Below are positions 3,119 through 4,411 of a DNA stretch of 11,370 nucleotides, one piece after another. The notes beneath the pieces were generated by a model. It saw only the letters and a program-made list of their open reading frames with translations. It ran no database searches and was not told the DNA's origin. How positions within the stretch are numbered: the first letter of the stretch is position 1; every line of letters starts with the position of its first letter. The stretch covers positions 4,094-15,463 of the forward strand of contig PLSJ01000311.1 in NCBI GenBank assembly GCA_003165115.1, in the 5' to 3' direction. The position numbers and the translations under genes are program-made. This DNA comes from Syntrophaceae bacterium. Its GTDB lineage: Bacteria; Desulfobacterota; Syntrophorhabdia; Syntrophorhabdales; WCHB1-27.

Positions 3119-3162
3119 CAGCCTCTCGTCGCGATGCCATAAGACATTACCATAAATTGTAA

Positions 3163-3264: not shown

Positions 3265-3312
3265 AGACAACAACGTTACCGATCCCGCATCGGTCCACGG
3301 AAGGAGGAAGAT

Positions 3313-3879
3313 ATGGCAGAAGTCAAATGGCTCAGGGACATGGAGGCCGCTCTCTCCCTCGCTCAATCGGAAGGGAAGCCCATACTGCTCGATTTCTTTA
3401 ACCCAAACTGAATAGGCTGCAAGCAGATGGGTGCGGTTACGTACCCTGACAGCCGCGTCGCGGAGTTCATCAATAACCGCATGATACCGGTCCAAATGTT
3501 GTATGACGCCCAGCCTTACGCGTCGGATTACAACGTCAAGTGGACTCCCACCATTATCACCCTCGACCAGAACGGAAAGGAACACCATCGGATCGTGGGC
3601 TTCCTGCCGCCCGACGAGTTTATCCCCGGATTGCTGCTCGGGACGGCCAAGATGAATTTCGACCGGGATGAGCTCGATGACGCCATGGCCGATCTCGAAA
3701 AGATCGTCAACAACTATCCGAAAAGCGCTGCAACGCCCGAGGCCGTGTATCTCCGGGGTGTCACCCAGTATAAGAACACGCACAGTCCCGAGCCCCTCAA
3801 GGAGGCATTCGAGCAACTGAGGCGCGAATACCCGTCGAGCGAATGGGCGAAGAGGGCCACGCCCTACAGCCTGCTTTAG
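3313..3879 (+). CDS. Thioredoxin-like UxxC selenoprotein, TGA (3409) read as Sec
   Basis: Read through the TGA at 3409-3411, this is one continuous 188-residue frame starting at ATG 3313, 5 nt after a strong AAGGAGG. Residues 1-110 are a thioredoxin fold: strand KPILLDFF, then NPN-U33-I-G-C36-KQM, a YPD-containing helix, and the cis-Pro strand WTPTIITLDQNGKE (Pro79). U33 occupies the first, nucleophilic cysteine of CxxC; close relatives I remember have Cys there (FFNPECIGCKQM). Residues about 115-185 look like a TPR-type helical tail (DLEKIVNNYPKS, then FEQLRREYPSSEWAKRA). There is no signal peptide, so a cytosolic thiol/selenol oxidoreductase is likely; its substrate is unknown. A SECIS-like hairpin follows the TGA, and the rest of the gene shows no decay. 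A simple nonsense mutation is the alternative. Ordinary gene calling would start at 3427 and remove the active site. Confidence 0.85.
3415..3454 (+). promoter_or_regulatory. Bacterial SECIS-like hairpin just after the TGA
   Basis: The outer stem GGCTG (3415-3419) pairs with CAGCC (3450-3454). The inner stem GGGTGC (3429-3434) pairs with GTACCC (3441-3446), including one G-U pair, and closes a six-base loop GGTTAC (3435-3440). Bacterial SECIS elements known to me have a small apical loop with a G in its first two bases, placed about 16-37 nt after the UGA. Here the loop starts with GG, 23 nt after it. It lies inside the coding region, as bacterial SelB requires. Confidence 0.7.
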
Positions 3880-4022: not shown

Positions 4023-4411
4023 ATGAACGACCTGGAGCTTGCCATCATCGATATGGAAACAACAGGAATCAGCGCCGTCCGCGACCGGATCATAGAGGTG
4101 GCGGTCCTGCGGATAAGCGGAGGGGAGTTGGCCGAGTAGTCTTCGACGCTCGTCAACCCGGAGAGGACCATCCCCCGTTACATAGAGCGCCTGACCGGCA
4201 TCACGAACGAGGAGCTCCGCGACGCGCCTGCTTTTGTTATCGCAGGCGCAACCTGGACAGCATTATCACGCGGTTCGACCTGGGATGCGCGAATCGCCAC
4301 CGCGCGATCGGCGACGCCCTGGCGTTGTGGTAATTCCTGCGGATCGTCAGGACAACGACGGAGGCGAAAAGGCTGAGTGAGGCGTTGACTAATTGCCGCC
4401 TTTCACTATAA
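4023..4411 (+). pseudogene. Decayed DnaQ-like (DEDDh) 3'-5' exonuclease
   Basis: The N-terminus is clear: MNDLELAIIDMETTGIS carries ExoI (D-x-E), followed by RDRIIEVAVLRISGGELAE. A TAG at 4137-4139 then interrupts the frame, which continues in phase as STLVNPERTIPRYIERLTGITNEELRDAPAF, typical of the family. Around 4235-4250 the frame breaks and the ExoII region (the usual VAHNxxFD block, roughly 60 residues) is missing. A shifted frame picks up NLDSIITRFDLGCANRHRAIGDALALW, which is ExoIII (HxAxxD). A TAA at 4331-4333 sits where homologues usually have Gln (WQFL), and the final stop is at 4409-4411. Two different stops plus a deletion/frameshift mean loss of function. The intact ancestor probably belonged to the DNA polymerase III epsilon-like exonucleases. 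Confidence 0.88.

Follow-up and report, generated by a model that had tools for sequence, protein, structure and literature searches.

A conserved in-frame TGA in a thioredoxin-like gene with a TPR-like tail points to a widespread bacterial selenoprotein family

Results

The locus and its reading frame

The window, a stretch of 11,370 nucleotides from a Syntrophaceae bacterium draft genome, carries on its forward strand a complete coding sequence at 3313..3879, which encodes 188 residues with a predicted selenocysteine (Sec) at residue 33 and ends with a TAG stop at 3877-3879. As read from the sequence, the frame opens at 3313 (GGAAGGAGGAAGAT-ATG), behind a Shine-Dalgarno region, GAAGGAGGAAGA, at 3300..3311. 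The closest in-frame stop upstream of 3313 is a TAA at 3160, and no further in-frame ATG, GTG or TTG lies between the two. The sole internal stop of 3313-3879 is a TGA at 3409..3411 (codon 33), the predicted Sec33 of a UIGC active site; the TGC at 3418..3420 supplies Cys36, the cysteine of the UxxC motif, with a putative resolving role. Ordinary gene calling would start at the ATG of Met39 (3427..3429) and yield a 150-residue product from the open reading frame 3427-3879. The earlier sequence-only reading, which had described a strong Shine-Dalgarno sequence with ATG at 3313, a TGA at codon 33 and a frame continuing to 3879, was exact in its coordinates. A promoter scan found no sigma-70-like site, an Rfam search of the window gave no fitting match, and a terminator scan returned two sites only, both on the opposite strand (chance mean 1.2). 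Elsewhere in the window, at 4023-4330 on the forward strand, a stretch resembling by eye the beginning of a DnaQ-type exonuclease is broken by a TAG in the same frame and looks decayed.

Conservation of the TGA codon

A protein search with residue 33 treated as Cys recovered 1186 relatives, of which the best 120 were examined. Among these, 101 have Met39, six codons past the TGA, as their first residue, in line with the expectation that ordinary gene calling truncates the protein. The other 19, full-length, protein records carry Cys (9), Trp (9) or Ser (1) at position 33. One protein record, P0003, is 78% identical to the window protein and has Ser at this position with the rest of the sequence intact.

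To read the codon directly from DNA we used 110 loci: 80 from named genomes (80 of 91 confirmed relatives kept) and 30 from relatives of the source genome, the latter being the best 30 matches in 99 such genomes. Matches with at least 141 aligned residues were counted, one per locus, and all 110 loci qualified. At this codon, 109 of them have TGA and the remaining one has TGC (Cys); after removal of eight pairs that are duplicates between the two locus sets, TGA occupies the site in 101 of 102 distinct sequences. The search was not biased toward TGA, since the site was C, W or S in the alignment used, and one of the two peptide patterns asked for C or W there, the other leaving the site uncovered. 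The position of the TGA is thus not a matter of chance, and its conservation across phyla speaks against a sequencing error. It had been suggested from the sequence alone that homologues would show TGA or Cys at this site and that an unrelated residue would count against the Sec reading: Cys is indeed the only alternative to TGA in the DNA, and it is the protein records that add Trp and Ser to their nine Cys.

Clustering at 95% left 97 TGA representatives. The 28 codons preceding the TGA contain no other stop in any of the 97, and they differ mainly at third positions: the differences by codon position are 0.28/0.21/0.61 for codons -14 to -1 and 0.45/0.37/0.60 for codons -28 to -15. A tree of 108 rows holds 97 Sec rows, with 10 Cys rows dispersed among them, and one Ser row, which is the sister of the window protein. 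Explaining the Cys rows takes 7 changes, and starred branches force no fewer than 5 of these. This scatter fits repeated loss of Sec to Cys; the tree has only a midpoint root and its bootstrap is not settled, so the direction of the change between Sec and Cys is not settled by it.

A conserved hairpin downstream of the TGA

In bacteria, the consensus SECIS element is a hairpin shortly 3' of the UGA with a G early in its apical loop. The window contains such a SECIS-like hairpin at 3429..3446 on the forward strand, with a stem of 7 bp formed by 3429-3435 and 3440-3446 and the loop GUUA at 3436-3439. Both the short distance from the UGA (17 nt to the stem, 24 nt to the loop) and the loop itself follow the bacterial rules. 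Taken alone, the window hairpin is not striking (z -1.86; 10 of 200 shuffles are as good).

Across the 97 representatives, all six core pairs are present in 85 sequences, with at least one missing in the other 12, against a mean of 5.3 and a maximum of 11 in 200 synonymous resamplings. The RNAalifold energy of the 97 representatives is -7.06, compared with 0 in all 200 synonymous resamplings. At position +10, Thr is encoded by ACG in 72 of 74 cases, whereas ACG makes up 21% of the Thr codons elsewhere in the same genes. Covariation was assessed in 66 of the 97 sequences: 20 cells with double changes were found against 4.5 in shuffles, none of 500 shuffles reaching as high, and 95.7% of cells are paired against at most 65.9% for registers slid along the alignment. 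Weaker measures of covariation give 3 pairs with a double change versus 1.8 (39 of 500 shuffles as high) and 8 further pair types versus 6.8 (69 of 500). The conservation of pairing beyond synonymous resampling, together with the covariation, shows that selection acts on RNA structure in addition to the encoded protein, and a hairpin placed 3' of the TGA fits a bacterial SECIS element. The hairpin, which the sequence-only reading had not noted, is independent support for the Sec reading, which is thus backed by the conserved TGA/Cys site and by a conserved, covarying hairpin.

Domains and predicted structure

Pfam assigns residues 17-104 to Thioredoxin_2 (PF13098; 57.6 bits, cut-off 27), and places TPR_6 at 108-138 and YfiO at 110-182, both over their cut-offs; the proposed succession of a thioredoxin domain and a TPR-like tail is borne out. 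The AlphaFold2 model (pLDDT 97.6, pTM 0.92) predicts the strand-helix order of a thioredoxin fold followed by helices to the end; the fold was named from Pfam, secondary structure and sequence relatives. Residue 33 directly precedes helix 34-43 in the model. The C-terminal TPR-like tail, residues 100-188 (3610..3876, forward strand), is predicted to consist of helices 100-117, 121-134, 141-156, 160-172, 177-181 and 183-187, and is present in the aligned full-length homologues. The segment Trp77-Thr78-Pro79 (3541..3549, forward strand), which we take from the thioredoxin fold family to be the cis-Pro loop, is found in all 97 TGA representatives, so the cis-Pro segment named from the sequence alone is conserved. 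U33, C36, T78 and P79, that is, the UxxC motif and the Thr-Pro pair, are likewise present in 97 of 97, and the residues invariant outside UxxC are W6, F28, G35, W77-T78-P79, D85, R93, G96 and W178. The window protein has no Cys besides the UxxC site. Its highest 19-residue Kyte-Doolittle mean is 1.16, and it has no long hydrophobic segment, from which we infer a cytosolic location.

No NCBIfam model (June 2026) scored over its cut-off for the three family members tested. TsoB ranks first (NF045694; 50.9 bits for the window protein, cut-off 805) and DsbD second (48.3 bits, cut-off 330). The scores for the thioredoxin equivalog TIGR01068 (31.3 bits, cut-off 96.8) and for BamD TIGR03302 (35.5 bits, cut-off 81.4) are also below their thresholds.

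Selenocysteine machinery in the source genome and its relatives

The source draft genome (3.9 Mb, 521 contigs) is 75.4% complete. It contains the first part of a selB gene, over cut-off, at a contig end, and a selA gene in two pieces at contig ends, scoring 223.4 and 181.1 bits, neither of which alone reaches the cut-off of 267.9. Two selD genes exceed the cut-off (L009 on G000:C459 and L010 on G000:C102); one of them has an in-frame TGA (GGGUASK) at a site where the other has Cys (GGCGAK), and is thus likely a second selenoprotein gene in the source genome. A selC gene was not found in this 75.4%-complete draft: we scored 150 of 448 first-look candidates and none was over the cut-off, four weak matches proved by ARAGORN to be tRNA-Ser (3) and tRNA-Trp (1), and a search of the draft with a relative's sequence also gave nothing. 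Of the four sel genes whose presence had been proposed as a check, the draft therefore yields selB, selD and, in pieces, selA, with selC missing.

A genome of the same family (G001) has a tRNA-Sec match of 71 bits, with a TCA anticodon recognized by eye; ARAGORN does not call this 92-base match. Among the 99 relatives, tRNA-Sec is over the cut-off in 83 and SelB in 85; the tRNA-Sec cut-off is not fully specific, as 5 of 14 control genomes also pass it. SelB and tRNA-Sec are each over the cut-off in 24 of the 29 genomes in this set that carry the TGA form, the source genome included. Two genomes of 96-97% completeness (G039 and G041) carry the TGA form with neither SelB nor tRNA-Sec over the cut-off. 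For 40 of the 80 named loci, SelB was over the cut-off in 34 of the 39 underlying genomes and not in the other 5. Since most relatives carry the machinery anyway, its co-occurrence with the TGA form is weak evidence.

Distribution, annotation and neighbourhood

According to record titles, the family occurs in Deltaproteobacteria/Thermodesulfobacteriota, Nitrospirae, Nitrospinota, Planctomycetota, Acidobacteria, Armatimonadetes and Bacillota, although single labels of metagenome-assembled genomes may be misbinned. The Planctomycetota members are Brocadia, one from a complete genome, and further records come from Geobacteraceae and Syntrophaceae. Named strains with the gene include Geobacter argillaceus and Trichlorobacter thiogenes, whose public proteins are 150 and 152 residues long, are called 'hypothetical protein' and match with 100% identity over 80% of the query. 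The distribution is patchy in the family of the G. argillaceus genome, where 3 of 13 genomes have the gene at E <= 1e-25, all with TGA. A divergent member with the motif FDGULGC (L158, G141:C58) occurs in a genome of that family.

Many database entries hold only the tail because the TGA is read as a stop: the 101 truncated records among the 120 closest listed retain only the C-terminal 80%, and some are named as TPR protein or BamD. A Geobacter pickeringii protein record is labelled BamD, and four 150-residue relatives (P0172, P0179, P0182 and P0183) are labelled outer membrane protein assembly factor BamD, apparently a consequence of their sequences starting downstream of the active site. With corrected gene models, many anaerobes would gain a conserved selenoenzyme.

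We compared gene neighbourhoods at 98 representative loci using rough calling of open reading frames in flanks of up to 4 kb (1.5 kb for some loci). There is no conserved neighbour, the commonest family occurring in 8 loci, and thus no hint of an operon.

Discussion

Interpretation and alternatives

We conclude with high confidence that the gene encodes a selenoprotein in which Sec is inserted at UGA 33 of a probably cytosolic UxxC thioredoxin domain followed by a TPR-like tail. At the level of sequence evidence, Sec insertion itself almost certainly takes place. SelB with Sec-tRNA would bind the hairpin directly 3' of UGA 33, leading to the insertion of selenocysteine, and the product would be a soluble cytosolic protein combining the UxxC thioredoxin domain with the TPR-like helical tail. 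The protein is most likely a Sec/Cys thiol-disulfide oxidoreductase, a prediction that extends to its redox chemistry: the selenolate would attack a disulfide or similar substrate, and Cys36 would resolve the mixed selenenylsulfide, by analogy with other UxxC oxidoreductases. The tail probably serves to dock a partner or substrate.

The large share of database proteins that begin at Met39 (3427), together with an ATG at codon 39 in 94 of the 97 representatives, could be taken to mean that the upstream ATG frame is a relic and that the real gene encodes a 150-residue TPR/BamD-like protein. We regard this as very unlikely. The codons before the TGA show the substitution pattern of coding DNA and are free of other stops, codon 39 is CTG (2) or TTG (1) in the other three representatives, and the Met39 product would, in the model, lack the first strand and the active site and start partway through the first active-site helix; the BamD model, as noted, scores far below its cut-off. 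The comparison of Shine-Dalgarno sequences favours the full-length gene by design, since it takes the best of several candidate starts there and one for Met39, and we used the Met39 side alone: a Shine-Dalgarno-like run before codon 39 is absent in 90 of 97. More improbable still is that the TGA stands for tryptophan, as in code 4, or is passed by general readthrough. Nine of the 19 listed full-length records do have Trp at position 33, but these are likely products of gene callers set to code 4. Among the 12 other main genes of the window, five use TGA as their stop codon and 10 have TGG codons. The tRNA-Trp observed in the source genome has the anticodon CCA, Cys is the only sense codon met in DNA at the site, and reading the TGA as tryptophan would leave the conserved hairpin without a reason. 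A random nonsense mutation, a pseudogene or a sequencing error has nothing beyond the stop itself in its favour, and with the same codon shared by nearly all loci and distinct sequences we give this next to no credence. We reject code 4, a pseudogene and an internal Met39 start.

A further alternative refines the selenoprotein reading and is compatible with it: the protein might serve a single partner as its dedicated reductant or sensor, for instance a tail-bound client related to peroxide or metals. The invariance of residues outside UxxC in all 97 representatives and the persistence of the tail in aligned full-length homologues argue for this, but no conserved neighbour gene hints at a client, and we consider it conceivable, though somewhat improbable. 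A broader proposal is that of an unnamed family, spread through anaerobes of several phyla, in which Sec would represent the ancestral condition or the default, repeated loss would have given Cys (and once Ser), and the TPR-like tail would mark a reductant that depends on selenium and is dedicated to one specific client. We advance it tentatively and lean against it; elsewhere, the commoner direction of change is from Cys to Sec. With Sec in most members and Cys in scattered ones, the family lends itself to the question of why selenium is kept.

Relation to known selenoproteins

The family belongs to a known kind of selenoprotein, and is real and widespread. The available text of the reviews PMC9312934 (2022) and PMC13188914 (2026) lists a UxxC 'thiol:disulfide interchange protein' with PF13098 (WP_011366075.1), credited there to Kryukov and Gladyshev 2004, and the available text of PMC1794560 places that selenoprotein in Geobacter metallireducens, G. 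uraniumreducens and Syntrophus aciditrophicus. PF13098 and UxxC are shared with the window protein, and the hosts overlap in Geobacteraceae and Syntrophaceae. Our family is probably this selenoprotein, matched by description, domain and motif rather than by sequence; the same protein is, judging from the available text of PMC2398784, probably its 'Trx-like 2' (cd02953). Further protein searches, in which the best 120 of 401 and the best 120 of 374 matches were examined, listed no match under the name G. metallireducens. The suggestion that a Sec-containing UxxC domain joined to a helical tail is little described thus seems to hold for the tail and not for the domain, which has probably been listed already. 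'TPR' and 'tetratricopeptide' have no occurrence in the available text of PMC9312934 and PMC13188914, the available parts of PMC1088965 and PMC2398784 contain no description of such a protein, and PMC5029168 and PMC12013277 gave zero counts for the terms and no such protein. In the open-licence literature we found no description of the TPR-like tail, of how strongly Sec predominates, of an occurrence across several phyla or of the systematic truncation.

Among the best PDB sequence matches are DsbD gamma (2fwe and 1uc7; profile positions 4-106) and the putative disulphide-isomerase 2kuc (profile positions 8-113). Unlike DsbD, the window protein stands alone, has Sec in place of the first Cys, and carries a helical tail where DsbD has a membrane domain. 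TsoB (NF045694), VPGUxxT (NF041382 and NF041383) and Trx7/PDZ (NF041199) show local likeness over the thioredoxin domain, but the window protein is far under the cut-offs of these models, which have other Sec motifs or architectures.

A TrxC-like thioredoxin with an in-frame TGA (UPHC or UGHC) is also of the UxxC type and also occurs in Geobacteraceae. It differs in its zinc-ribbon-like N-terminal CxxC pairs, its motif and its lack of a TPR tail, and we treat it as a separate family, named by eye. Six other TGA-bearing PF13098 matches in Geobacteraceae that we looked at proved to be TrxC-like. At one locus (L156, G011:C119; 829-1338 and 1789-2385), a TrxC-like TGA frame (UGHC) precedes a family member on the same strand by about 450 bases, placing two thioredoxin selenoprotein genes side by side.
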